This document shows, piece by piece, positions 13,112 through 28,329 of a stretch of 64,000 nucleotides of DNA (position 1 is its first letter; each line of letters opens with the position of its first letter). Made by a program: the position numbers and the translations under genes. The notes under the pieces are model-generated. The model ran no database searches, was not told the DNA's origin, and saw only the letters and a program-made list of their open reading frames with translations. Origin of the DNA: Hyphomicrobiales bacterium (lineage in GTDB: Bacteria; Pseudomonadota; Alphaproteobacteria; Rhizobiales; Rhizobiaceae); the NCBI GenBank assembly GCA_900473685.1, contig UCNE01000007.1, positions 1-64,000 on the forward strand, given 5' to 3'.

Positions 13112-14452
13112 TCAGGCCAACAGTTCACGCATAACGGCACGGAATTTCGCCGATATTTCATCCCGTTTGTGGTGTCTTCCACCTTCGACCTGCTTGCGGC
13201 CAGCCACCCAGACAGCGTCAGGTTTCGTGCCGTTGGCAAACAGCCAGGAATCGAGAGCTGCATCATCCGTGAGATCGCCATCCGGCGCACGCAGACTGAC
13301 AAAATCGGCCGGATTTCCGACGGTGATCCCGGTTTTGCTGCCCACGGCAATACCGCCGCCTTCCACCGCACCATCAAACAACGCGCGGCCGGTCGATTGG
13401 CCGGGGGCGGCCAGAACGTTGCGGGAGCGGTGTGCGAGACGCTGTGAATATTCCAGCTGGCGCAGTTCGTCCGGCAAGCCGATCAGCACGTTTGAATCCG
13501 AACCGATACCAAACTTTCCGCCCGCTTCGCCGAACACGACCGCATTGAAGGTGCCGTCACCGAGATTGGCCTCCGTGATCGGGCAGAGGCCGGCGATCGC
13601 CTTGCTCTTGCCCATCCGGCGGGTCTCGCCGTCAGTCATGTGTGTCGCATGGATCAGGCACCAGCGGCCATCAAGCCCGGCATTGTCGAGCAACCATTCG
13701 ACCGGCCGCGCACCGGACCATGCGATGCAGTCCTCGACTTCCTTGACCTGCTCGGCGACATGAATGTGGATAGGACCATCCTTTGCCATCGCGACAACGG
13801 CCGAAAGCTCATCCGGCGTGACCGCCCGCAGCGAGTGTGGCGCGACACCGACGCGCCCGTCCGGCAAATCCCTGACCGCCAAACGGCAACCGTCGAGCAA
13901 CCGCTCAAAGCTCTCGACCGTGTTGATGAACCGGCGCTGGCCCTCGTTTGGAGCAGCACCGCCAAACGTCGAGTGTGCGTAGAAGACAGGAAGCAGCGTC
14001 AGGCCGATCCCCGTCCGCGAAGCTGCCGCCGCGATCCGTTGCGCCATTTCGGAGATGTCGGCATAGGGGCGCCCGTCGATATCGTGGTGCAGATAATGGA
14101 ACTCGCCGACACGTGAAAAACCCGCTTCCAGCATTTCCATATAAAGCTGACTGGCAACCGCTTCGGCATGATCCGGCGTCATCGTCAGGGCGAAACGATA
14201 CATCACATTGCGCCAGCTCCAGAAGCTGTCGGCGCCGGGGCCACGCGTTTCAGCGAGGCCCGCCATGCCGCGCTGAAACGCGTGGCTGTGCAGGTTCGGC
14301 ATGCCCGGCACCAGGATATCATGGCGCTCGTCACCGGCCTGCGCCGTGGCACCCGCATCGATACTGGCGATCCGGCCGCCTTCGACCGTCAGCCGCACAT
14401 CCTTCTGCCATCCCGCCGGCGTCAGAGCCGATTTCACATGAATGCTGGTCAA
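13112..14452 (-). CDS. hutF: Formimidoylglutamate deiminase HutF
   Basis: The protein (446 residues) belongs to the amidohydrolase superfamily. The metal-site motif NLHSHAFQRGMAG is near residue 54, HIHVAEQ near 235 and the HATHM segment near 265. HutF hydrolyses formimidoylglutamate to N-formylglutamate and ammonia. Its presence beside hutG shows that this organism uses the five-step histidine route. It is divergent from hutI with a 99-base promoter region between them, and hutC follows 88 bases downstream. Confidence 0.93.
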   Translation of the reverse strand: MTSIHVKSALTPAGWQKDVRLTVEGGRIASIDAGATAQAGDERHDILVPGMPNLHSHAFQRGMAGLAETRGPGADSFWSWRNVMYRFALTMTPDHAEAVASQLYMEMLEAGFSRVGEFHYLHHDIDGRPYADISEMAQRIAAAASRTGIGLTLLPVFYAHSTFGGAAPNEGQRRFINTVESFERLLDGCRLAVRDLPDGRVGVAPHSLRAVTPDELSAVVAMAKDGPIHIHVAEQVKEVEDCIAWSGARPVEWLLDNAGLDGRWCLIHATHMTDGETRRMGKSKAIAGLCPITEANLGDGTFNAVVFGEAGGKFGIGSDSNVLIGLPDELRQLEYSQRLAHRSRNVLAAPGQSTGRALFDGAVEGGGIAVGSKTGITVGNPADFVSLRAPDGDLTDDAALDSWLFANGTKPDAVWVAGRKQVEGGRHHKRDEISAKFRAVMRELLA

Positions 14453-14508
14453 GGCCTCATCCCTTCCTGACTGCGTCGCTCAAAAAAATCACTTGCGCTC
14501 ATTTTCTT

Positions 14509-14522
14509 TATGTCTATACATA
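14509..14522. promoter_or_regulatory. Candidate HutC operator between hutF and hutI
   Basis: TATGT-CTAT-ACATA is a perfect inverted repeat with a four-base centre. It lies 29 bases before hutI and 56 before hutF, and resembles the TGTATA-type sites bound by HutC proteins. One site could control both divergent operons. Confidence 0.65.
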
Positions 14523-14551
14523 ATAGCACGAAAAGGAAAGGCTAGAAAACG

Positions 14552-15802
14552 ATGTCTTCCATAAAATCGGCACCAGACAGCACCCGGCCAACCGCGTGCG
14601 ACCGCCTGTGGCGCAACGCCCGGCTCGCCACGCTGAATCCTGCTTTGCCGGGCCTTGGCCTTGTCGAAAACGGCGTCATCGCCGTTCAGGACGGACGCAT
14701 CGTTTACGCCGGTGATGAAGCCGGCCTGCCCTTCGCGATCGAAAATGCTGTCGAGGTCATCGACTGCGGCGGCCGCTGGATCACTCCCGGCCTGATCGAC
14801 TGCCACACCCATCTGGTCCATGCCGGTGACCGCGCCAACGAATTCGAGATGCGGCTTGCCGGTGCAACGTACGAAGAAGTCGCCCGCGCCGGTGGTGGCA
14901 TCGTTTCCTCGGTCCGTTCGCTGCGCGAAGCCAGCGAAGACGAGCTTGTGCGCCAGACCCTTCCCCGCCTGGACGCGCTGATGGCCGAGGGCGTCACCAC
15001 CGTCGAAGTCAAATCTGGTTATGGCCTCGATCTCGAAAACGAAGCCAAGGCACTGCGCGCCGCACGCCGTCTGGGCGAGGAACGCGACGTCACTGTGCGT
15101 ACCACATTCCTCGGCGCCCACGCGCTGCCGCCGGAATTCAAGGGCGACAAGGCTGGTTATATCGCCAAGGTTGTTGGCGAAATGCTGCCTGCCATTACTG
15201 CCGAAGGGCTGGCCGATGCGGTCGATGGTTTCTGCGAAGGCATCGCCTTCTCGATCGACGAAATGCGGCTGGTGTTCGATGCGGCGAAAGCCCATGGCCT
15301 GCCGGTCAAGCTGCACGCCGACCAGCTGTCCAACCTGCATGGCGCTGCACTCGCGGCCGAATATGGCGCACTCTCGGCTGATCATCTCGAATATACGGAT
15401 GAAGCCGGCGCGGAGGCGATGGCAAAGAGTGGCACGGTCGCTGTCATTCTGCCTGGCGCGTACTATTTCATCCGCGAAACAAAGAAGCCGCCAGTTGACC
15501 TCTTCCGCAAGGCAGGTGTCGCGATGGCAATCGCCACCGATAACAACCCCGGCACCTCGCCGCTGACCTCGCTACTTTTGACCATGAACATGGCGGCAAC
15601 ATTGTTTGGCATGACCGTCACGGAATGCATCGCCGGTGTGACCCGCGAGGCCGCACGCGCACTCGGCCTCGTCGACGAAGTGGGGACGCTGGAACCCGGA
15701 AAATGGGCCGATTTCGCCATCTGGAATATCGAGCGACCGGCCGAACTCGTCTACCGCATGGGCTTCAACTCGCTCCATGCGCGCGTCCGCAACGGACATT
15801 GA
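14552..15802 (+). CDS. hutI: Imidazolonepropionase HutI
   Basis: The protein (416 residues) is a metal-dependent amidohydrolase. Its metal site [16 protein letters not shown] is near residue 80-90, followed by [40 protein letters not shown] and the C-terminal [11 protein letters not shown]. HutI opens the imidazolone ring to give formimidoylglutamate, the third step of histidine breakdown. First gene of the plus-strand hut operon, with hutH starting 47 bases after its stop. Confidence 0.95.
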
Positions 15803-15849
15803 TTTAATGGCACGCGGTTGGGAGACCCGTGCATTGGTGAGGACTTCAC

Positions 15850-17385
15850 ATGACCCTTATTCTGCAGCCGGGCTCCGTCTCGCTTTCGACCCTCGAAACC
15901 ATCTACTGGACCGGCGAACCTGCCCGTCTCGATCCGTCTTTCGACAAGGGCATCGAGAAGGCCGCCGCCCGCATCGCCGAGATCGCCGCTGGCAACGCGC
16001 CGGTCTACGGTATCAACACCGGCTTCGGTAAACTCGCATCGATCAAGATCGATGCCGCCGATGTCGCAACCCTGCAGCGCAACCTGATCCTGTCGCATTG
16101 CTGCGGCGTCGGGCAGCCACTGGCTGAAAACGTCGTCCGGCTGATCATGGCGCTGAAGCTCGTTTCGCTCGGCCGCGGCGCCTCCGGTGTCCGGCTCGAA
16201 CTCGTCCGCCTGATCGAAGGCATGCTCGAAAAAGGCGTTATCCCGGTCATCCCGGAAAAGGGCTCTGTCGGCGCTTCCGGCGATCTGGCTCCGCTTGCTC
16301 ACATGGCAGCGGTGATGATGGGCGAAGGCGAAGCCTTCTTCAACGGCGAACAACTTGGCGGCCGCACCGCCTTGCAGCGTGCCGGCCTGACGCCGGTCGT
16401 GCTTGCCGCTAAGGAAGGGCTGGCGCTGATCAACGGCACGCAGACTTCCACGGCTCTTGCACTCGCCGGTCTCTTCCGCGCCCACCGCGCCGCCCAGTCC
16501 GCCTTGATCACCGGCGCGCTTTCGACCGATGCCGCCATGGGTTCTTCGGCGCCGTTCCATCCGGATATCCATACGCTGCGCGGCCACAAGGGCCAGATTG
16601 ATGCCGCTGCTGCCCTGCGCGGCCTGTTGAAAGGCTCGGTCATCCGCGAAAGCCATATCGAAGGCGACGAGCGCGTCCAGGATCCCTATTGCATCCGCTG
16701 CCAGCCGCAGGTCGACGGTGCCTGCCTCGATCTCCTGCGCTCGGTTGCCCGTACGCTGGAAATCGAAGCCAACGCCGTCACCGACAATCCGCTGGTTCTC
16801 TCCGACAATTCCGTCGTTTCCGGCGGCAACTTCCACGCTGAACCGGTCGCCTTCGCCGCCGACCAGATCGCTCTTGCCATCTGCGAGATCGGCGCCATCT
16901 CACAGCGCCGCATCGCCCTTCTGGTCGACCCCGCCCTCTCCTATGGCCTGCCAGCCTTCTTGGCCAAGAAACCAGGCCTCAACTCGGGCCTGATGATTGC
17001 CGAAGTCACCTCGGCAGCCCTGATGTCTGAAAACAAGCAGATGTCGCACCCGGCTTCGGTCGATTCGACACCGACCTCGGCAAACCAGGAAGACCATGTC
17101 TCCATGGCCTGCCACGGTGCCCGCCGCCTACTGCAGATGACCGACAACCTGTTTTCGATCATCGGCATCGAAGCGCTGACCGCCGCCCAGGGCATCGACT
17201 TCCGCGCTCCGCTCGTGACCAGCCCGGAACTGACCAACGCCATCGCGGCAATCCGCAAGGTTGTCCCGACGCTGGACGTCGATCGCTACATGGCAACCGA
17301 CCTCAAGGCAGCAACCGACCTCATTGCCAACGGCGCGCTGAACACCGCGGTATCGACTGGCATTCTCCCGGTTCTGGAGAGCTGA
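15850..17385 (+). CDS. hutH: Histidine ammonia-lyase HutH
   Basis: This 511-residue protein has every hallmark of a working histidine ammonia-lyase. The cofactor triad Ala142-Ser143-Gly144 sits in [16 protein letters not shown] and forms the MIO electrophile. The catalytic positions are also present: Tyr53 (VYGINTGFG), His83 (LSHCCGVG), Asn195 (LINGTQTST), Tyr280 and Arg283 (VQDPYCIRC) and the late Glu in NQEDHVSM. It converts histidine to urocanate and ammonia. Its numbering matches that of the Pseudomonas enzyme. hutG begins one base after its stop. Confidence 0.96.
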
Positions 17386-17386
17386 C

Positions 17387-18201
17387 ATGAGCGTTTTTGA
17401 AGTCAAGCAAGGCACATCGCCGGTCATTCTCGGCTTTCCGCATACCGGTACCGATGTCCCGCCCGCCATCTGGGAGCGGCTGAACGACACCGGCCGGTTG
17501 TTGACCGATACCGACTGGCACATCCATCACCTCTATGATGGCTTGCTGCCGGATGTAACGACGGTGCGCGCCACCTTCCATCGCTACGTCCTTGACGCAA
17601 ACCGCGATCCGGAGGGCGTCAGCCTCTATCCCGGCCAGAACACCACCGGGCTTATTCCGGAAACCGACTTCGACGGCGTTCCAATCTGGAAGGACGGCGA
17701 GGAGCCGACCGAGGCCGATATCGCCGCCCGCCTCGCCGATTTCCATGCGCCCTATCATGCTGCACTCTTGGCCGAAATCGAACGGGTGAAGGCGATCCAC
17801 GGCATCGCCGTACTCTATGATTGCCATTCGATCCGGTCGGATATCCCGTTCCTGTTTGAAGGCACGTTGCCCGATTTCAACGTCGGCACCGATATGGGCA
17901 AGACGTGTGACCCGGCCATTCAGGACGCTACTGTCGATGTCGTTCTGAACGCAGAGGGCTATACCAGCATCCTCAACGGCCGCTTCAAGGGTGGATGGAC
18001 GACGCGCCATTATAGCGATCAGGAAAACGGCGTTCACACGATCCAGATGGAGTTGGCACAGTCCACGCATCTGAACATCGAAGCCCCGCCCTTCGCCTAT
18101 GACAAAGCCAAGGCAGCCAAGCTTCGCATTCACCTCAAAGAGATTCTCACGCGCATCGAAACAACGGCGCTGACACTGGCACACACCAAAAGGGGAACAA
18201 A

Positions 18202-18205
<4 letters not shown>
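17387..18205 (+). CDS. hutG: N-formylglutamate deformylase HutG
   Basis: The protein (272 residues) belongs to the N-formylglutamate amidohydrolase family: [17 protein letters not shown] near the start, [12 protein letters not shown], then [13 protein letters not shown] and a late [20 protein letters not shown]. It releases glutamate and formate, the last step of the five-step route and the partner of HutF. It lies one base after hutH and its TGA overlaps the hutU ATG. It is not related to the arginase-like formimidoylglutamase that carries the same gene name in some bacteria. Confidence 0.93.
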
Positions 18206-19875
<1,670 letters not shown>

Positions 19876-19885
19876 AAAAGAGCGC

Positions 19886-19914
19886 CCCGGACCTTGCCTT
19901 CTGCGCGGTCCGGG
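19886..19914 (+). terminator. Hairpin between hutU and hutD, possible weak terminator
   Basis: CCCGGACC and GGTCCGGG form an eight-pair stem with a 13-base loop. Only three T residues follow, so it may instead protect or separate the hutIHGU message from hutD. Confidence 0.45.
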
Positions 19915-19956
19915 TTTGCCAGAGAGTGACGGAACCCGCCTTCAAGGATTGTGGCC

Positions 19957-20523
19957 ATGAATGTTCTTCGCTCGGAAAACCATCGCCGCATGCCGTGGAA
20001 AAACGGTGGGGGCGAAACGGTGGAGATCGCGGTGTTTCCGCCGCAGGCGGATCTGTCGGCCTTCGGCTGGCGCGTCAGCATGGCAACGGTTGCCAGCGAT
20101 GGGCCATTCTCGGTGTTTGCCGGGATCGATCGCACCCTGTCGATCCTCGAAGGTGAGGGTATGGAGTTGGATATTGGCGGGAGGGAGCCTGTCGTCTTGA
20201 CCAGAACATCGCAACCGCTGGCCTTCCCAGCCGATGCGGCGACATCCGCACGGCTGGTATCCGGCACGATCGTCGATCTCAACGTGATGACCCGCCGGGG
20301 GCAGTGGACACATCAGGTGGAGCGGCGCGTGTTCGAAGGCGATCACCCTCTTGATGCCGAAGGCGGCGTCACCCTACTTCTGTCGCTCGGCAATCTGCGG
20401 ATCGACAGCGGTGAGCACGCCGAGGAATTGACCCGGCTCGACTGCGCCATCATCGAAGGCCCTTGCCGCATCAGTTCGGATACGCCGGCTGAGGCCTATC
20501 TGATCCGTATCAGCCCCGTCTAA
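19957..20523 (+). CDS. hutD: HutD family protein
   Basis: The protein has 188 residues from the ATG at 19957; a GTG two codons upstream is also possible. It starts MNVLRSENHRRMPWKNGGGE followed by TVEIAVFPP, then WRVSMATVASDGPFSVFAGIDRTL and GGREPV, as in the cupin-fold HutD family. HutD is found with hut operons; its exact role is unclear, and it has been proposed to act as a governor that binds urocanate or formylglutamate. It ends tail to tail with the next minus-strand gene: the two stop codons overlap by two bases. Confidence 0.88.
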   Translation: MNVLRSENHRRMPWKNGGGETVEIAVFPPQADLSAFGWRVSMATVASDGPFSVFAGIDRTLSILEGEGMELDIGGREPVVLTRTSQPLAFPADAATSARLVSGTIVDLNVMTRRGQWTHQVERRVFEGDHPLDAEGGVTLLLSLGNLRIDSGEHAEELTRLDCAIIEGPCRISSDTPAEAYLIRISPV

Positions 20524-21452
20524 CGGCCATTTCTGCGGGCCAGATTGCCCAGCACGTGGCAGATCAACCGGCCGACCACAGTCGCGGTCATTCCGTTGAC
20601 ATCTGCCTTCGGTTGAAACTCGACGATCGAAAAGCCAGCGAGTATCCGGCCCGTCATTGCCGAGGCGATAAGATCGGTGACTTCCTCAAGCCACAGGCCT
20701 CCAGGCGACAGTGCGTTGACGCCCGGGCAGATCGACGGGTCGAGCGCATCGACGTCGATATGGATCAGTAGCGCGCCATCCCGCGGAATGGCGTCGGCGA
20801 TCTCCGCAACACCGTTTGCCCGAACCTGGCGTACCGTAACCAACCGCGATCCCCAGGCCTTTGCCGCCTCGACCTCTTCACGGCGCGCGCTGCCAACACC
20901 GCGAATACCGGCTTGCGTCATGGAACGCATGAATGGCAACTCGGACGCGCGGCGCATCGTGCTGGAATAGCCGAGCGTTTCATCGCCGATCCGGTCGCGC
21001 CAGTCGATATGCGCGTCGATCTGGAGAATATGCAGGGCATCCACATCTGAGAGACCGCGCATGAAGGGAATGGCGGCGGAATCGTCACCGCCGATCAGCA
21101 ACGGGATGGCGCCTGCTGCCCGGATGTTTCGCGTGACAGCCTCGATCGCCGTTCGATTGCCGGCATTGTCATCCGGCCGCGTCGCTACATCGCCAAGGTC
21201 GACAACATCGAGCACGCCATCGTTTAACAACGGCCCGTCAAAATCGAAGTCCCAGTGGTCAATATGCACGGACGCCTCCGTGATCGCCCGGCGGACGGCA
21301 TCCGGACCTCTCACGCCGGAAAAGTCGTGAGTGGCATGGGGATAGGCCGTTCCGTGTTCCGCTCCAAAAATCGCAACGGAACCTGGCCGGGGCTCCGTTG
21401 CGGTGGGCAGGCCAAGGAAGGTTTCGGCTGCAGGCTCAAGTGTGTAGGTCAT
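20520..21452 (-). CDS. Arginase/agmatinase-family ureohydrolase, substrate unknown
   Basis: From the ATG at 21452 the protein has 310 residues; a TTG at 21458 is the alternative. It has the ureohydrolase fold motifs DAHIDWRD and HIDVDALDPS, which supply five of the metal ligands. The block that is usually GGDHS reads GGDDS, replacing the first His ligand by Asp. Family members cleave guanidino or formimino groups (agmatine, guanidinobutyrate, formimidoylglutamate, guanidine). It is the last gene of the ABC transporter, HutH-like and flavin oxidase operon, starting two bases after the oxidase stop. Because hutF and hutG already complete histidine breakdown, a different substrate is likely. Confidence 0.82.
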   Translation of the reverse strand: MTYTLEPAAETFLGLPTATEPRPGSVAIFGAEHGTAYPHATHDFSGVRGPDAVRRAITEASVHIDHWDFDFDGPLLNDGVLDVVDLGDVATRPDDNAGNRTAIEAVTRNIRAAGAIPLLIGGDDSAAIPFMRGLSDVDALHILQIDAHIDWRDRIGDETLGYSSTMRRASELPFMRSMTQAGIRGVGSARREEVEAAKAWGSRLVTVRQVRANGVAEIADAIPRDGALLIHIDVDALDPSICPGVNALSPGGLWLEEVTDLIASAMTGRILAGFSIVEFQPKADVNGMTATVVGRLICHVLGNLARRNGR

Positions 21453-21454
21453 GC

Positions 21455-22612
21455 TCAAGCCGCCCGCGCTGCGAGAAACCGGTTCATTGCCGCAAACGAA
21501 AAAGCACCGATCGGCAGATCGGTGCCGCCATCCAGAGCCAGATCAGCCAGAATTTCGCCAACAACACTGGTGAACTTGAACCCGTGGCCGGAGCAGGGCG
21601 ATGCTACGACGATGCGATTATCGCCCGGCAAGAGGTCGAGCAGAAAATCCTCGCTCGGCAGCATCGTATAGCGGCAGGTGGTGGAGCGCACGCGCAGCCC
21701 AGCAGCGGACGGCAGCCGGCGCTTGATGAAGTTGTCGAGCAGATCCGTATCCTTGTCGTTGACGGCCGGATTGGGCTGGTTCGGATCAATCGGTTCGCGG
21801 AAATGTGCGTGACGGCCGACCTTGACGCCATCGACGCCGATCGCTGGGAAACCGAAGAAAGAGCCGTTCTCGCCTTCGTCGCGAATGAACACCGGCATGC
21901 GCTGCGGCACGGTGACGAAACCATCCGTCGGCTGATACCAGGAAACCACCTGCTTGATCGGCACCGCATGATCGCGCAAAACCGGTACCAGTTCACCGAT
22001 CCAGGAGCCCGTTGCCACGATCACCTTGCTGGCGGCGTAACGCCCGGTATCAGATACGATGACTACGCCGCCCTCGCCCGGCTCGATCGCTGTCACCTTC
22101 TCGCCGAAATGCAACACCGCCCCATCGGCGGCGGCCAGCTTGAGATGGCCCATCACGGCTGCTTCGGGCCGTAGATATCCGCCCTGCGGGTCGAGCAATG
22201 CGATCTCGTCAGCATCCAGCGAAAACACCGGAAAACGGCGGCGCATCTCGGTTGGATCAAGCGTTTCCAGCGGCAAGTTGTGCAGCGCGCAGCTCTTCTT
22301 CGTGCCGCTGACAATCTTGCTGTCGGGCTTGCCGATCTGCAGGACGCCGGTGATTGTGAGGATATCCTCGCGCAGCCGCGCTTCCAGCGTCCGCCAATTG
22401 GCATAGGCGCGCTGCAGCAGCGGCACATAGGATGGATCCTCGAAATAGCCGAGCCGGATCAAACGGCTGTCGCCATGCGAGGAACTGAGCGCATGGGCCG
22501 GATAGTAGGCATCGATGCCGATTGCCTTGATGCCGCGCACAGCCAGATGCGCGATGGCGGCACTGCCCATGGCGCCAAGACCGACAACAGCAACGTCGAA
22601 ATGGGCGGTCAT
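21455..22612 (-). CDS. Monomeric sarcosine oxidase / N-methyltryptophan oxidase family flavoprotein
   Basis: The protein (385 residues) has an N-terminal FAD-binding motif (VAVVGLGAMGSAAIAHLA), then SSSHGDSRLIRLGY. CRYTMLPSEDFLLDLLP contains the Cys that anchors FAD covalently in this family, and the C-terminal SPCSGHGFKFTSVVG lies at the flavin. Family members oxidise secondary N-methyl amino acids or related cyclic imino acids, releasing formaldehyde and hydrogen peroxide. It resembles SolA, but the substrate cannot be read from sequence. The start has GGAAGGA six bases ahead. It is co-transcribed with the HutH-like gene (21 bases upstream) and the ureohydrolase gene (two bases downstream). 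Confidence 0.87.
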   Translation of the reverse strand: MTAHFDVAVVGLGAMGSAAIAHLAVRGIKAIGIDAYYPAHALSSSHGDSRLIRLGYFEDPSYVPLLQRAYANWRTLEARLREDILTITGVLQIGKPDSKIVSGTKKSCALHNLPLETLDPTEMRRRFPVFSLDADEIALLDPQGGYLRPEAAVMGHLKLAAADGAVLHFGEKVTAIEPGEGGVVIVSDTGRYAASKVIVATGSWIGELVPVLRDHAVPIKQVVSWYQPTDGFVTVPQRMPVFIRDEGENGSFFGFPAIGVDGVKVGRHAHFREPIDPNQPNPAVNDKDTDLLDNFIKRRLPSAAGLRVRSTTCRYTMLPSEDFLLDLLPGDNRIVVASPCSGHGFKFTSVVGEILADLALDGGTDLPIGAFSFAAMNRFLAARAA

Positions 22613-22633: not shown

Positions 22634-24127
22634 TCAGATGTGTGGAGGCGGTGACCTGCGCAGGAGATCGCGGGCCTTTTCCAGATCCCAGCCGAGCGGC
22701 CGGTCGTCGGCATAGGTTGGCACATCCGCACGGATATGGCGATAGAGCACATCGGTTCCGGCGGCTCGCGACGCAACGCCGGATTTGAAATCCTGCGCCT
22801 GTGCGGCCGCGGCAAACTCGATGCCGAATATCTGCTCGGCATTGTCGATGACCGCGAGCAGCTTGTTGGCGGCAGCCGTCGGATGTCCGAGGAAATCCTC
22901 CTGCAATGCTGACGTAATGCCGCCATCAAGGCTGGCCGGGGCGCCAAGACGCCGGTTTTCCGCAGCAAGCGCCGCTGCCGTATATTGCGCGATCATGAAG
23001 CCGGAACCGGCACCCGGATCGGCGGCAAGAAATGCGGGCAGACCGCTCACCAGCGGATTGACGAGACGGTCAATCCGTCGCTCGCTCATCATCGAAATCT
23101 GGGCAATCGCGACAGCGAGGCTATCGAGCGCCTGTCCCAGCGCTGGCGCGACGGCATGGGCTTCGGAGGACACCACCGGTGCTTCCGGCGTGCCCGAGAC
23201 AGCAGGATTGTCAGTGACGGAAGCCAGTTCCTGATTGACGACGGTGCTCGTAAACTCGAACACATCCCGCCCGGCACCATGGGCATGCGGGACGGAACGT
23301 ATGCTCAGGGCATCCTGCGTGCGCGCGCCCTTGGCGGCATCGATCAATCCGCTCCCAGCCAGCCGCTCGCGCAAGTTCCTGCCGACTTTCTCGATCCCCG
23401 CGGACTTGCGAAGGGCGAGCACGTCCGCCTCAAAGGCTGTCATCTGGCAACCAAGTGCTTCCATCGTCAATGCGGCAATGGCGTCGGCCCAGTCCAGCAG
23501 CCGTTCCGCCCGAGCCAAGGCCAAAGCTCCGAGCCCTGTTGAGCAGGCCGTTCCATTGACGAGGCTCAGGCCTTCCTTCGCCTGCAGGACCAGCGACGCG
23601 ACGCCAAGCGACTTCAGCGCTTCGGCACCGGTCACCGGATTCCCCTTCAACCGAGCCCTGCCCTCGCCAATCAACACCAGCGCGACATGGGCATTGTGGC
23701 TGAGATATCCCGCCGACCCCTTCGATGGCACCTCCGGGATGCAGTCTTCGCGCAGAAACGTCTGCAGCAGCTCAACGATTGCTGCGCGCACGCCGGAATG
23801 GCCATGAGAAAAATTGGCGATCTGGGCTGCGATGATCGCGCGGACTTCGCGCGCCTCCAGTAACGGCCCGACACCGCAGGCATGGCTGAGGATAATGTTG
23901 CGCGAAAGGCGGCTCTGCGACGGGCGATCCACCACGGTATCGGCGAGAGCGCCAACACCCGTGTTGACCCCATAGGCCCGCACGCCGCTTTCGACGATCG
24001 CCGAGACGATGCGGCTTGCCGTTTCAACCCGCTGACTGGCAGCATTGGAAAGAGCAAGCGTTGCGCCATCGGCAACCGCCGCCACGGCGCGCCAGTCGAG
24101 CGCCGTTTCAAGCACGATGTCCTGCAC
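22634..24127 (-). CDS. Aromatic amino-acid lyase family protein lacking the MIO triad (HutH paralogue)
   Basis: The GTG start at 24127 is preceded by GGAGG and gives 497 residues aligned over their whole length with HutH. Kept are Tyr52 (AYGVNTGVG), His82 (LSHACGVG), Asn191 (LVNGTACST), Gln271, Arg277 and the late QED. Lost are two things. Where HutH has [10 protein letters not shown], this protein has KG-SAG-YL with three residues fewer, so the position of the MIO serine is Ala139. The essential Tyr280 of HutH is Leu274. I confirmed the codons on the minus strand (tcg gcg gga at about 23716-23708). It therefore cannot form the usual cofactor. It lies three bases after an ABC ATPase gene. Enzymatic or binding role unknown. 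Confidence 0.85.
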   Translation of the reverse strand: MQDIVLETALDWRAVAAVADGATLALSNAASQRVETASRIVSAIVESGVRAYGVNTGVGALADTVVDRPSQSRLSRNIILSHACGVGPLLEAREVRAIIAAQIANFSHGHSGVRAAIVELLQTFLREDCIPEVPSKGSAGYLSHNAHVALVLIGEGRARLKGNPVTGAEALKSLGVASLVLQAKEGLSLVNGTACSTGLGALALARAERLLDWADAIAALTMEALGCQMTAFEADVLALRKSAGIEKVGRNLRERLAGSGLIDAAKGARTQDALSIRSVPHAHGAGRDVFEFTSTVVNQELASVTDNPAVSGTPEAPVVSSEAHAVAPALGQALDSLAVAIAQISMMSERRIDRLVNPLVSGLPAFLAADPGAGSGFMIAQYTAAALAAENRRLGAPASLDGGITSALQEDFLGHPTAAANKLLAVIDNAEQIFGIEFAAAAQAQDFKSGVASRAAGTDVLYRHIRADVPTYADDRPLGWDLEKARDLLRRSPPPHI

Positions 24128-24129
24128 GA

Positions 24130-24936
24130 TCAGCCTCCGAAATTGCCGATAAACTGGCGGAAACTGGGTGAGCCACCCGAACCGAACAGTTCCTCCGGCG
24201 CGCCATCGCTGTCGATCTCGCCGGACTTCATGAAGATCACCCGGTTGGAAACGTTGCGGGCAAAACTCATTTCGTGGGTGACGACCAGCATGGTCATGCC
24301 TTCTTCAGCCAGCGAGCGCATGACACGCAGCACTTCGCCGACCAGTTCCGGATCCAGTGCCGAGGTCGGCTCGTCAAACAGCATGACCTTCGGCCGCATC
24401 GCCAGCGAACGGGCGATCGCTGCGCGCTGCTGCTGGCCACCGGACAGATGCGCCGGATATGCGTGGCGCTTTTCCGCGATACCGACCTTTTCCAAGAGCG
24501 CTTCGGCTTCAGCGATACATTCGGCGCGCGGTCGCTTCAGCACATGCACCGGCCCCTCGATGACATTCTCGAGGATCGTCATGTGGGACCAGAGATTGAA
24601 CGACTGGAAAACCATGCCGAGTTCGGAACGGATCCGGTCCACCTGCTTGCGGTTCGCCGGCACGTTCTTGCCGCCGCGCTGTTGCATCTGGATCAGTTCG
24701 CCATCGACGGAAATCTCGCCGTGATCGGCGATTTCCAACAGATTGATACAGCGCAGGAAGGTCGATTTGCCTGAGCCGCTGGCGCCGAGCAATGAAATGA
24801 CGTCGCCGTCGCGAGCCTCGAGAGAAATGCCGCGCAACACTTCATGCGTGCCAAAACTCTTACGGATATTGCGGACGGAAAGCCGGGTCGTGCCTGCCAT
24901 GGTCGTTCCAGTCTGGTTGAGGGTCACGGAGGTCAT
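24130..24936 (-). CDS. Polar amino-acid ABC transporter ATP-binding protein (HisP type)
   Basis: The protein has 268 residues. The Walker A motif GASGSGKST is near residue 52, the signature [15 protein letters not shown] near 165, and Walker B is [14 protein letters not shown]. This is the PAAT/HisP-GlnQ class, which energises uptake of polar amino acids at the inner membrane. Its ATG overlaps the stop of the permease gene by four bases, and a further in-frame ATG at 24900 is possible. Its stop lies two bases before the HutH-like gene, linking uptake and catabolism in one operon. Confidence 0.92.
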
Positions 24937-25643
24937 CGTTGCGGAACCGGGAAAAGCGGCGCGGCGCGGCGATGCGGGGTCAGCTTGTATTCAAGCAGAG
25001 CCATGGCCTGCAGGATGATGAAGTTGAGAATGAGATAGATTGCGGCGGCACACAGGAAGACCTCCATCGTGCGGTATGTCTGCGAGATCAGCCGCTGGGC
25101 GACGCCGGTCACTTCCCAGACGGTGACAAGGCTGGCGAGCGCCGTCGATTTGACCATCATCACCACTTCGGTCGAGTAAGCTGGCAGGGCGTGGCGGAAG
25201 GCGATCGGCGCCAAGATACGTCGTGTCAAAAGGAAGCCCGACATGCCGACGGACCGCGCCGCCTCGATTTCCTTGGCCGGAATGGCGCGCAGGCCGAAGC
25301 GGAAGATCTCCGCCGAATAACCGGCCGTGCAGAGCGCCAAGGACAGCACGGCGCAGACGAAGGGCTCGCGCAGCGCCGGCCACAGGAAGCTGTAGCGGAT
25401 GAAGCCGAACTGCCCCAGGCCGTAGAAGATCAGGAACATCTGGATCAGAAGCGGCGAGCCGCGAAAGATGAAGATGTAGCCCTTGGCGAAGTTGCGGGCT
25501 GCGGCATTGCCGCTGACGCGCATCCAGACGATCAGAAGCGCCAGGATGCCGCCGAAGAAGACGGAAAGGGAAAACAGCGCCAGCGTCATCGGCAGAGCGG
25601 CCAGCAGCGTTTTCATGGTCTCGAACATGAAGGCGATGTCCAT
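24933..25643 (-). CDS. Polar amino-acid ABC transporter permease (HisM-like)
   Basis: This 236-residue inner-membrane protein has about five hydrophobic segments. The cytoplasmic EAA-type loop ([20 protein letters not shown], then [13 protein letters not shown]) contacts the ATPase. It belongs to the HisM/GlnP permease family and pairs with the permease encoded 15 bases upstream. The pair would form the membrane channel for the substrate delivered by the binding protein. Confidence 0.9.
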
Positions 25644-25658: not shown

Positions 25659-26381
25659 TCAGGCCTGGCCGAAACTGGTCGGCATGCTGCGATTGGCGCG
25701 CTTTTCAGCACTGTTGAAAATACGGTCGGAGAAGCTGGTCATAATCAGATAGAGGCAGCCGCCGACAATGAAGAACAGGAAATGCTGCCGCGTTGACCCG
25801 GCCGCGACCTGACTGGTGCGCATCAGGTCGGCAAGGCCGGTCACCGAAACCAGCGCCGAGTCCTTGAGGCTGAGCTGCCAGACATTGCCGATGCCCGGAA
25901 TGGCGAACCGGAACACCTGCGGCCCGATGATGCGGCGGAAGCGCAAGCCGCGGTTCATGCCGATCGCCTGCGCCGCCTCCAGCTCCCCCTTGGGGATGGC
26001 CAGATACGCACCGCGAAACACCTCGGCCTGATAGGCGCCAGAGATGATGCCGACGGCAAGCGCACCGGCTGCAAAGGACGGAAGGCCGAGAAAGCCCTCG
26101 TAACCCATCGCCGTGCCGATGGCGGTGACCGCACTCGATCCGCCGAAATAAACGAGATAAATGATCAGCAGCTCGGGAACACCACGGAAGACGGTGGTGT
26201 AGGTTCCGCCGATCACCTTCAGGATCCGGCTGCCCGAGAGCTTCGCCCAGGCAATCAACGAGCCGAGAATAGCCCCGATCACCAATGCGACCCCTGTGAC
26301 GCACAGCGTCATCAACGCTGCCACGAGCAGCAGTCCGCCCCACCCGGTGGGGCCAAATCCGATCATTTGAAGTAAAGACAT
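25659..26381 (-). CDS. Polar amino-acid ABC transporter permease (HisQ-like)
   Basis: This 240-residue inner-membrane protein has about five hydrophobic segments and the EAA loop GELEAAQAIGMNRGLRFRRI followed by IGPQVFRFAIPGIGN. It is the HisQ-type half of the channel. A 145-base gap separates it from the binding-protein gene upstream. Such gaps often hold hairpins that let the binding protein be made in excess, but I see no perfect one here. Confidence 0.9.
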   Translation of the reverse strand: MSLLQMIGFGPTGWGGLLLVAALMTLCVTGVALVIGAILGSLIAWAKLSGSRILKVIGGTYTTVFRGVPELLIIYLVYFGGSSAVTAIGTAMGYEGFLGLPSFAAGALAVGIISGAYQAEVFRGAYLAIPKGELEAAQAIGMNRGLRFRRIIGPQVFRFAIPGIGNVWQLSLKDSALVSVTGLADLMRTSQVAAGSTRQHFLFFIVGGCLYLIMTSFSDRIFNSAEKRANRSMPTSFGQA

Positions 26382-26526: not shown

Positions 26527-27366
26527 TCAGGGAGTAACGTCGGTCTTGAACCACTTCATCGACAAGGTCTTGATCGTGCCGTCAGCAAGTGCGGATTCGA
26601 TCGCCTTGTTGAACATGTCGCGCAGATCGGTATCGGCCTGACGGATCCCAAGGCCTTCACCGCTGCCGAAGATCGTGCCGCCGATTTCAGGGCCGGTGAA
26701 GCCGAGCGTACCGTTGGACTTTTCAAAGGCGGAGATCAGGTAGACCGCATCGTCGAATACCAGGTCGATACGGCCGCTTTCGAGATCGAGATCACGCTCG
26801 GCGCCGGTCTTGTATTCGCGCACCGTGGCAACATCGCCGAAGTTGTCATAGACGAACTTGGAATATACGGTCGCGGCCTGGATACCGATGGTCTTGCCGG
26901 CAAACGCCGCCTTCATCGCCTCGACTTCCTTGACGCCGGTCGCCCCCGGATCGAGCTTGATGACCGTTCCGGTTCCTGCAGCATTGGCCAGCGGGCTGTC
27001 CTTCAAGGTGGCAAAAGCAGCGTGCGTGTGAGCGTAAGGGATGGTGAAGTCGATGATCTTCTTGCGCTCTTCAGTAATCGACAAAGCGTCCATGATGACA
27101 TCGAACTTGCCGGCATTGAGCGCCGGGATCATGCCGTCCCAATCGGAAGCAACCAGCGTGCACTCGACCTTCATGTGTTCGCAGAGATACTTGGCCAGCT
27201 CCGGCTCGAAACCGCCGAGCGTGCCATCCGGATTGGTGAGGTTCCAGGGCGCATAGGCGCCTTCAAGCGTGATGGTAACAGTCTTCCAGTCCTTGGCCTG
27301 CGCCATCGGAGCGGAAAGCGTTGCAAATGCGACGGCGCCAGCCATCAGAAATTTTGACAGGTTCAT
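26527..27366 (-). CDS. Periplasmic amino-acid binding protein of ABC transporter
   Basis: The ATG at 27366, with GAGGA eight bases ahead, gives 279 residues; a GTG two codons upstream is less likely. A signal peptide is clear (MNLSKFLMAGAVAFATLSAP, cleavage after AQA). The mature part is a type-3 solute-binding protein of the HisJ/ArgT family: EGAYAPWNLTNPDGTLGGFE, MIPALNAGKFDVIMDALSIT, then TIGIQAATVYSKFVYDNFG. It would capture a cationic or polar amino acid, histidine-like given the operon. It is the first gene of the operon. A palindromic operator lies about 110 bases upstream. Confidence 0.92.
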   Translation of the reverse strand: MNLSKFLMAGAVAFATLSAPMAQAKDWKTVTITLEGAYAPWNLTNPDGTLGGFEPELAKYLCEHMKVECTLVASDWDGMIPALNAGKFDVIMDALSITEERKKIIDFTIPYAHTHAAFATLKDSPLANAAGTGTVIKLDPGATGVKEVEAMKAAFAGKTIGIQAATVYSKFVYDNFGDVATVREYKTGAERDLDLESGRIDLVFDDAVYLISAFEKSNGTLGFTGPEIGGTIFGSGEGLGIRQADTDLRDMFNKAIESALADGTIKTLSMKWFKTDVTP

Positions 27367-27475
27367 GTTCACGTTCCTCTGAGGTTTATCTTCAACAACG
27401 TCCGCCGATCTGCGCCGGCTTCACAATAACTGATGGAGATCGAGCATCCAAAATGCCGCTGAACATCCATGTTGT

Positions 27476-27561: not shown

Positions 27562-28329
27562 ATGAAACGAAGCAACAACCAGAACGCTCCGTTAAAATGG
27601 GACACCAGCGACAATGATGGCGCGCCGCTTTACGCGGGCGTCAAGCAGATGATCCTCGACCGCATCCAGAGCGGCGAATGGCCGCCGAAACATCGGGTCC
27701 CCTCGGAGAACGAACTGGTTGCGGAACTGGGCGTCAGCAAGATGACGGCCAACCGGGCGCTCCGGGAATTGGCAAACGAAGGCGAACTCGTGCGCATCCA
27801 GGGCGTCGGCTCTTTTGTTGCCGAACGCAAGGGTTATTCCGAACTGTTCGAAGTTCGCAACATCGCCGAGGAGATCGACGAACGCGGCCATACGCATCAG
27901 GCGTCGGTGATCGTTTTGGCCCAGGAAACGGCCGCACCCGACGTCGCCGACGCGCTTGGCCTGCCGATCGGCGCTTCCGTGTTTCATTCGCTGATCGTAC
28001 ACAGCGAAAACGGCGTTCCGGTCCAGATCGAAGACCGCTTCGTCAACCCGGAGGCAGCACCAGGTTATCTGGAACAGGATTTCACGGTACAGACGCCGAA
28101 TGCGTATTTGACGGCGGAAGCCCCCTTGAGCGGCTCCGAACATATCGTCGAAGCCGCGATGCCTCAGCCATGGGAATGCAAGCTGCTGGTGATCTTGCGC
28201 ACAGAACCGTGCCTGCTCATTCGCCGCCGCACGTGGTCGTCGAAACGCGCCGTGTCATTTGCCCGCCTGGTCTATCCCGGCAACCGATATCGACTGGAAT
28301 CACGCAGTGGAAAGATGACAGATGAATGA
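27562..28329 (+). CDS. Second HutC-type GntR regulator
   Basis: The protein has 255 residues with an N-terminal winged helix (GVKQMILDRIQSGEWPPKHR, VPSENELVAELGVSKMTANR, then IQGVGSFVAE) and a UTRA ligand domain ending RLVYPGNRYRLESRSG. It is clearly a paralogue of the HutC at 12253. It is divergent from the transporter, HutH-like, oxidase and ureohydrolase operon and is its probable repressor, with a urocanate-like ligand possible. Start has AAGGA nine bases ahead. A second copy of its putative operator core lies just beyond its 3' end. Confidence 0.88.
   Translation: MKRSNNQNAPLKWDTSDNDGAPLYAGVKQMILDRIQSGEWPPKHRVPSENELVAELGVSKMTANRALRELANEGELVRIQGVGSFVAERKGYSELFEVRNIAEEIDERGHTHQASVIVLAQETAAPDVADALGLPIGASVFHSLIVHSENGVPVQIEDRFVNPEAAPGYLEQDFTVQTPNAYLTAEAPLSGSEHIVEAAMPQPWECKLLVILRTEPCLLIRRRTWSSKRAVSFARLVYPGNRYRLESRSGKMTDE

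Follow-up and report, generated by a model that had tools for sequence, protein, structure and literature searches.

A second gene of the histidase fold lies beside the hut genes in the analyzed stretch of DNA from Hyphomicrobiales bacterium (GCA_900473685.1, contig UCNE01000007.1, positions 1 to 64,000; these 64,000 nucleotides are called the window). Its product, here named HALx, lacks the triad from which the canonical HutH of the same window forms its MIO cofactor. This raises the question whether HALx is an enzyme and, if so, which compound it acts on. The hut gene block of the window covers positions 13112-20523. HutH, HutC and HutD were assigned by family searches, and the names of hutF, hutI, hutG and hutU come from inspection; for HutU, HutI and HutG, the annotation of a Klebsiella pneumoniae plasmid record that contains their matches lists the same genes.

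HALx is encoded in an operon with the order binding protein, permease, permease, ATPase, HALx, SolA-like oxidase and arginase-family hydrolase (Table 1), in which the genes are separated by 145, 15, -4, 2, 21 and -4 bases. This agrees with an earlier reading made from the letters alone (the sequence-only reading), which had described an intact frame in a tight operon. The protein of 497 amino acids is a member of the superfamily by its match to Pfam Lyase_aromatic (PF00221; 460 bits, gathering cut-off 27.3). Its match to the NCBIfam hutH model (TIGR01225) reaches 451.4 bits and thus stays below the curated cut-off of 539.15. The identity between HALx and HutH is 39%.

Table 1. Positions of HALx, its sequence motifs, the genes of its operon and neighboring hut genes in the window.
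Feature	Position	Strand	Evidence
HALx, MIO-free protein of the histidase fold, 497 aa, GTG start	22634..24127	-	open frame, Pfam, alignment, predicted fold
GSAGYLSH, one Tyr (Tyr141) in place of the MIO segment ASGD; His144 clade-specific	23696..23719	-	alignment
QDALSIR with Gln271, Leu274 (for HutH Tyr280) and Arg277	23297..23317	-	alignment
Glu410, equivalent of HutH Glu414, in 147/147 of the clade	22898..22900	-	alignment
SolA-like FAD N-methyl amino acid oxidase, next gene of the operon	21455..22612	-	Pfam DAO; NCBIfam N-methyl-L-tryptophan oxidase, 415 bits, cut-off 257
Arginase-family hydrolase, agmatinase- / formimidoylglutamase-like, under both cut-offs	20520..21458	-	family searches
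ABC ATPase, HisP-like (best NCBIfam match, under its cut-off)	24130..24936	-	NCBIfam
ABC permease	24933..25643	-	family search
ABC permease	25659..26381	-	family search
Periplasmic binding protein, SBP_bac_3	26527..27372	-	family searches
HutC repressor, divergent, upstream of the operon	27562..28329	+	NCBIfam his_ut_repres, 300 bits, cut-off 220
Canonical HutH, ASG triad and Tyr280	15850..17385	+	NCBIfam hutH, 733 bits, cut-off 539; alignment
HutU urocanase, predicted consumer of the HALx product	18202..19875	+	ORF inspection; match in the Klebsiella plasmid annotated hutU

The MIO triad is absent from HALx, as was seen when its segment KGSAGY---LSHNAH was aligned with 16 letters of HutH. Set against a 14-letter HutH segment, GSAG-Y-LSHNAH of HALx has one Tyr in place of the four residues Ala-Ser-Gly-Asp. 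Throughout the clade the change consists of Gly-Tyr for Gly-Ala-Ser-Gly-Asp, with a net loss of three residues. The sequence-only reading had correctly recognized a HutH-like protein without the triad at this place, and its deletion of three residues agrees with the net loss, but not its replacement of the triad by Ser-Ala-Gly: these residues align with Ser139-Val140-Gly141 of HutH, just before the triad and outside it, and their middle residue is variable in the clade (A in 91, V in 54 and L in 2 of 147 rows). For these two reasons Ser-Ala-Gly was rejected as a new cofactor triad. The other residues were read correctly: Tyr280 of HutH is replaced by Leu274 (QDALSIR), and equivalents of Tyr53, His83, Asn195, Gln277 and Arg283 are present, to which Glu414 can be added. 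Judged from these residues, MIO chemistry is excluded for HALx. The wider statement that standard ammonia-lyase chemistry is impossible holds for the MIO-dependent reaction, but lyase chemistry is still possible, as the example of ergothionase indicates.

A set of 222 family members was compared, which were chosen by similarity and do not form a census; duplicates (271 to 216) and rows below 400 amino acids had been dropped first. The Gly-Tyr form was found in 147 rows, 146 of which carry Leu280. ASGD occurs in 66 rows, all of them with Tyr280, and nine rows including PDB 6S7J are ergothionase-like, with no triad and with Leu280 in every case. Since the 147 rows were classed by Gly-Tyr itself, the independent facts are Leu280 in 146 of them and the single branch that they form in the tree. 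For the six residues named above, conservation ranges from 145 to 147 rows out of 147, one row being short at its N-terminal part; the equivalent of Tyr53, the catalytic tyrosine, is present in 146/146 rows covering that site and that of Glu414 in 147/147. The sole Gly-Tyr row with Tyr at site 280 is a lyase with the motif GSVGYLGPEGH (L214:8458-10032, minus strand, G234:C1), near a zinc alcohol dehydrogenase and an ABC permease.

Furthermore, a column comparison was performed with a set of 75 rows of lower redundancy (44 of the Gly-Tyr form, 18 HutH and 9 ergothionase-like, 4 other MIO rows being excluded). With the thresholds applied, the clade and HutH differ cleanly in 11 columns. Six of them belong to the MIO segment, His144 and site 280, which suggests that the chemistry and not the scaffold was changed; the other five are scattered. 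The HALx family thus appears to have retained the histidine site with an altered elimination chemistry. The predicted fold of HALx is intact (pLDDT 83.2, pTM 0.86), with weak loops at residues 59-61, 323-325, 358-365 and 400-412. The nearest PDB structure to the model is the histidase of P. putida (TM 0.91); for ergothionase the TM is 0.86. HALx resembles HutH (EC 4.3.1.3; P. putida 1B8F, 1EB4) in fold, in the residues of the imidazole and carboxylate sites and in its hut context, but differs from it in the missing triad, in Leu for Tyr280, in the hutH score and in its separate clade.

The ergothionase of T. denticola (PDB 6S7J/6S7Q) works without MIO and eliminates trimethylamine, according to the part of the source that was available (PMC13405746). 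In common with HALx it has the missing MIO, Leu280 and the equivalents of Tyr53, Arg283 and Glu414; in its PDB chain the MIO site has the letters SSIGEGDI and the Tyr280 site the letters QDPLSFR. In contrast, the MIO site is shortened by one residue in ergothionase and by three in HALx, ergothionase has S-C-N at positions 195-197 where HALx and HutH have N-G-T, and its substrate bears a ring sulfur. In the tree, which was rooted at midpoint and carries a long-branch warning for 6S7J and for the third homologue of the window's genome (L174), 44 HALx rows are united on one branch (98/85), sister to HutH with moderate support (85/74), and the ergothionase-like rows form a separate branch (100/99). 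HALx was therefore rejected as a member of the ergothionase group. In view of the separate branches, the midpoint root and the long branches, MIO was either lost twice or never present in the ergothionase-like lineage. The conserved clade of Ser-Ala-Gly plus Leu, for which an alignment had been proposed, exists as a clade of Gly-Tyr and Leu280, but not with Ser-Ala-Gly, whose middle residue varies. The suggestion of a new enzyme class on this fold was too strong, since with ergothionase a MIO-free lyase of the same fold that eliminates trimethylamine is already known.

In the genus, a HALx match was found in 24 of 26 genomes with identities of 57-100%, and the motif was confirmed in the 10 sequences inspected. 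The family sample gave matches in 23/151 genomes at E<=1e-100 and the order sample in 21/297 at E<=1e-84. At the latter threshold the phylum sample gave 25/398, or 23 without two genomes whose proteins (L054, L055) carry ASGD and were removed from the HALx counts. A genome without a match at E<=1e-84 was regarded as HALx-free; as the three best candidates were scored in most genomes, distant members may escape this definition. Among the best 80 of 587 relatives in a scan of genome contigs, most belong to Rhizobiaceae and their relatives, and Thalassospira and Kaistia are represented too. Seven of the 581 plasmid records matching one clade member (L040) were inspected: Gly-Tyr with Leu was found on plasmids of Erwinia, Klebsiella, Burkholderia, Priestia, Aminobacter and Rhizobium, and a homologue on a Deinococcus plasmid has ASGD and Tyr. 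The clade spans several classes of Pseudomonadota and reaches Bacillota.

In comparisons with seven congeners the dN/dS of HALx is 0.066-0.135 and that of HutH 0.042-0.062. HALx is under purifying selection, as had been proposed. That HALx is a decaying duplicate of HutH has a negligible probability. One congener (G017) does contain a second HALx-like copy in two neighboring pieces (C2:704498-705849), with the intact copy on C1, but the open frames, the low dN/dS in all seven pairs and the extent of the clade argue against decay, and it was rejected. A strain-specific decay of the triad, which the sequence-only reading had named as a refutation, was looked for and not found, since the form occurs in 147 of the 222 homologues and the dN/dS against the congeners is low. 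The arginase-family gene at 20520-21458 has the highest dN among the seven genes compared in each of the seven pairs (dN/dS 0.09-0.14).

The distribution of HALx is linked to the hut pathway. In the phylum sample HutU was found in 23/23 HALx genomes and in 147/398 genomes overall (hypergeometric 3e-11); counted by genus, the values are 14/14 and 90/213 (p 3e-6), with genera that are not fully independent. The presence of HutU in all HALx genomes of this sample suggests a link between the product of HALx and urocanate. Of 107 HALx loci, which are of unequal length, mostly from Rhizobiaceae and with at least one gene entered twice (L135 = L164), 49 have HutU, HutH or HutI nearby, and in 58 these are absent from the available stretch. 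Some loci, e.g., L161, L167, L169, L170 and L171, have neither hut genes nor a transporter of the SBP_bac_3 or betaine type. A neighbor shared by the loci without hut genes was sought and not found; in several of them the neighbors are housekeeping or unrelated genes such as RecQ helicase, ribosomal L21 and GMP synthase, and these give no functional clue.

HutH with at least 53% identity accompanies HALx in 24 of the 25 HALx genomes searched; a 26th genome (G194) has no HALx. In the exception, G476, the best match to HutH is HALx itself with 39%, and HutD, HutC, HutF, HutU, a BCCT transporter, HALx, HutI and HutG lie together. Two other homologues of this genome are an ergothionase-like one of 30% nearby and one of 33% with the ASG triad elsewhere, because of which a histidase in G476 is possible. 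In addition, HALx was found in hut clusters on two plasmids, where it is the sole lyase of the fold on the plasmid record considered. Klebsiella pneumoniae pKPN-065 (L223) carries hutG, hutI, a permease, hutU, an ABC system, HALx, hutD, hutC and hutF, and no HutH on this record; a Priestia megaterium plasmid carries hut genes and HALx. Both statements refer to the plasmid records. Hut clusters with HALx and without a typical HutH make sense if the urocanate formed by HALx derives from a compound different from free histidine, alone or in addition to it.

These clusters also bear on a role of HALx without catalysis, as a sensor, a buffer or a HutH partner subunit that binds histidine or urocanate. 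The loss of the cofactor and the co-occurrence with HutH in 24/25 genomes would fit such a role, but it is improbable in view of the catalytic tyrosine and the glutamate kept in every row covering them, of HALx occurring on plasmid records that lack HutH and in a genome with no typical HutH, and of the 39% identity to HutH in a separate clade. The proposed chaperone or partner of HutH is weakened by the same clusters, and an obligatory partner was rejected because of the hut plasmids with HALx alone.

The same low probability is given to a MIO-free histidase acting on free L-histidine as an isozyme of HutH. The residues of the histidine site are retained, HALx takes the place of HutH in some hut clusters, and the NCBI hutH model accepts one clade member, L040. 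Against this, neither MIO nor Tyr280 is present, and HutH is kept as well in 24/25 HALx genomes tested.

A working MIO-free lyase with hercynine (N-alpha-trimethyl-histidine, histidine betaine) as the likeliest substrate is the preferred reading, and it has about an even chance of being correct. It builds on the residues, the clade, the selection, the hut link and a partial link to betaine transporters, and from these we infer catalysis, substrate, leaving group and the roles of Tyr141 and His144. HALx would perform a 1,2-elimination on the histidase fold without MIO, on a histidine-shaped substrate bound via the retained imidazole and carboxylate residues. The beta proton would be abstracted by Tyr52, which corresponds to HutH Tyr53, the imidazole would be held by Glu410 and His82 and the carboxylate by Arg277, and the space freed by MIO and Tyr280 would be lined by Tyr141 and Leu274. 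The leaving group would already be a quaternary or otherwise substituted amine, so that MIO would be unneeded. Hercynine would fit such a site, as judged from the chemistry of histidase and the precedent of ergothionase, since its trimethylammonium group is a good leaving group and, unlike a free amine, could not attack MIO; ergothionase, MIO-free and with Leu280, is a precedent for this chemistry. Hercynine would be converted to urocanate and trimethylamine, and the urocanate would enter the ordinary route via HutU, HutI and HutG. The proposed substrate exists in nature, as histidine betaine is reported from a cyanobacterium in the available part of PMC3826126.

The transporters near HALx were analyzed with regard to the substrate. 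Among the 107 loci, SBP_bac_3 was found in 70 and OpuAC or BCCT in 16, one locus having both and 22 neither; a wider OpuAC model added one more locus. A betaine-type transporter lies near HALx in 5 of 13 genera of the phylum sample, vs. 2 of 80 hut regions without a HALx match (Fisher 4e-4), a comparison of HALx-centered regions with HutU-centered regions; 124 genomes have HutU and lack a HALx match, and 80 of them supplied the latter regions. In these 80 regions OpuAC was found in two and BCCT in none, with a first OpuAC model that recovered 3/6 of the Pfam OpuAC places of the window's own genome. The wider model with a looser limit again gave 2/80, and its check in the own genome is circular, since those proteins are in the model. 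In L162 and L163, HutU and HALx are located on either side of a BCCT gene. HALx has OpuAC systems in its vicinity in Agrobacterium loci and related ones (confirmed with Pfam in L109, L112 and L129), in L153, in the group L155/L157/L159 and on the Klebsiella plasmid. These transporters favor a betaine as substrate. They are no proof, as the window itself has a transporter of the amino-acid type (SBP_bac_3) and a role in histidine uptake is reported for Pseudomonas HutXWV in the part of PMC8871633 that was available.

Hercynine has as its chief rival a less methylated histidine that would undergo the same chemistry, the MIO-free histidase and the non-catalytic partner being less likely. More broadly, HALx may act on another histidine derivative (N-alpha-methyl- or dimethyl-histidine, a ring-methylated betaine, a hydroxy or acyl derivative) and form urocanate or a near relative, a reading which is rather unlikely and clearly behind hercynine. 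It shares the evidence of the residues and of the hut linkage, and it is kept alive by the adjoining SolA-like oxidase, which suggests N-methylated amino acids in Rhizobium, and by the amino-acid type of the window's transporter. Betaine-type transporters near other HALx members speak against it, as does ergothionase, the one MIO-free member found with published chemistry, which uses a trimethylated substrate in the available text of PMC13405746.

A probable counterpart of HALx is hutH1 of Pseudomonas, where hutTu, hutXWV and hutH1 lie between hutU and hutH (PMC8871633, as far as this source was available). The locus L155 has the order HutU, permease, OpuAC-permease-ATPase, HALx, HutH, HutI and HutG, which is the published order of hutH1. 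We infer that the L155 gene, which carries the GYL motif, is hutH1; the SBW25 gene differs in being called a histidase, with no substrate given in the available part of that source (PMC8871633). The match of the L155 order with the published one is taken to mean that HALx is probably not a histidase. The corresponding gene of P. aeruginosa is probably PA5093. Under that locus tag a hutG is reported, whose mutant has growth defects on histidine or urocanate (PMC12772324, in the part that was available). If PA5093 is hutH1, these defects count against the hercynine reading, yet a hutG function and a defect on urocanate misfit a lyase.

A report of the substrate of the HALx clade was not found in the open literature searched, in which ergothionase and ergothioneine were partly covered, so that a published hercynine lyase is possible. 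Maurer 2019, Yan 2022 and Beliaeva 2021 are said to deal with ergothionase and ergothioneine breakdown. Hercynine, urocanate and trimethylamine treated together were likewise not found in the open literature searched, nor was there mention of MIO-less or MIO-independent lyases or of trimethylamine elimination among the literature matches listed. The available parts of PMC12977541 and PMC5596199 hold no information on the substrate of HALx. With a chance somewhat short of even, the clade represents an undescribed MIO-free hercynine trimethylamine-lyase, a second MIO-free lineage on this fold distinct from ergothionase, extending from Pseudomonadota into Bacillota and linking the environmental betaine pool to hut. 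If so, hutH1 of Pseudomonas would gain a function, bacteria would have a route from hercynine to glutamate and trimethylamine, and a MIO-free lineage would stand beside HutH, separate from ergothionase and with the same Leu for Tyr280.

Genes of the HALx type are often named histidine ammonia-lyase, although their products cannot form its cofactor; this is the public name of five of the six annotated members inspected. The hutH equivalog cut-off of TIGR01225 (539.15) admits the MIO-free L040 with 539.7 bits, which may explain the naming of several such genes. Gly-Tyr-Leu for Ala-Ser-Gly together with Leu for Tyr280 provides a sequence rule for the repair of these annotations.

Finally, further lyases without MIO were observed. 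The genome of the window encodes two other homologues, HutH of the window and a third one at C7:103293-104711. The latter (L174, G000:C7:94300-113700) has GSIGCADIG and Leu at site 280, and its best PDB match is ergothionase with 191 bits. It lies in a run of genes (3040-10445 of L174) with an amidohydrolase, an M20 peptidase, an S-Me-THD protein and a urocanase paralogue, which looks like a cluster for the degradation of ergothioneine or S-methyl-ergothioneine. On the plasmid pKPN-065, a hut cluster is combined with an OpuAC transporter and a MIO-free lyase. In addition, HALx-bearing genomes contain lyases without the triad (GAADL, GAGDL, GASDI) and with Leu280 in L209, L210, L211, L212, L215, L216 and L163:5010-6545, whose substrates are perhaps other betaines. 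The one in L163 adjoins an OpuAC protein and an ornithine-cyclodeaminase-like gene.
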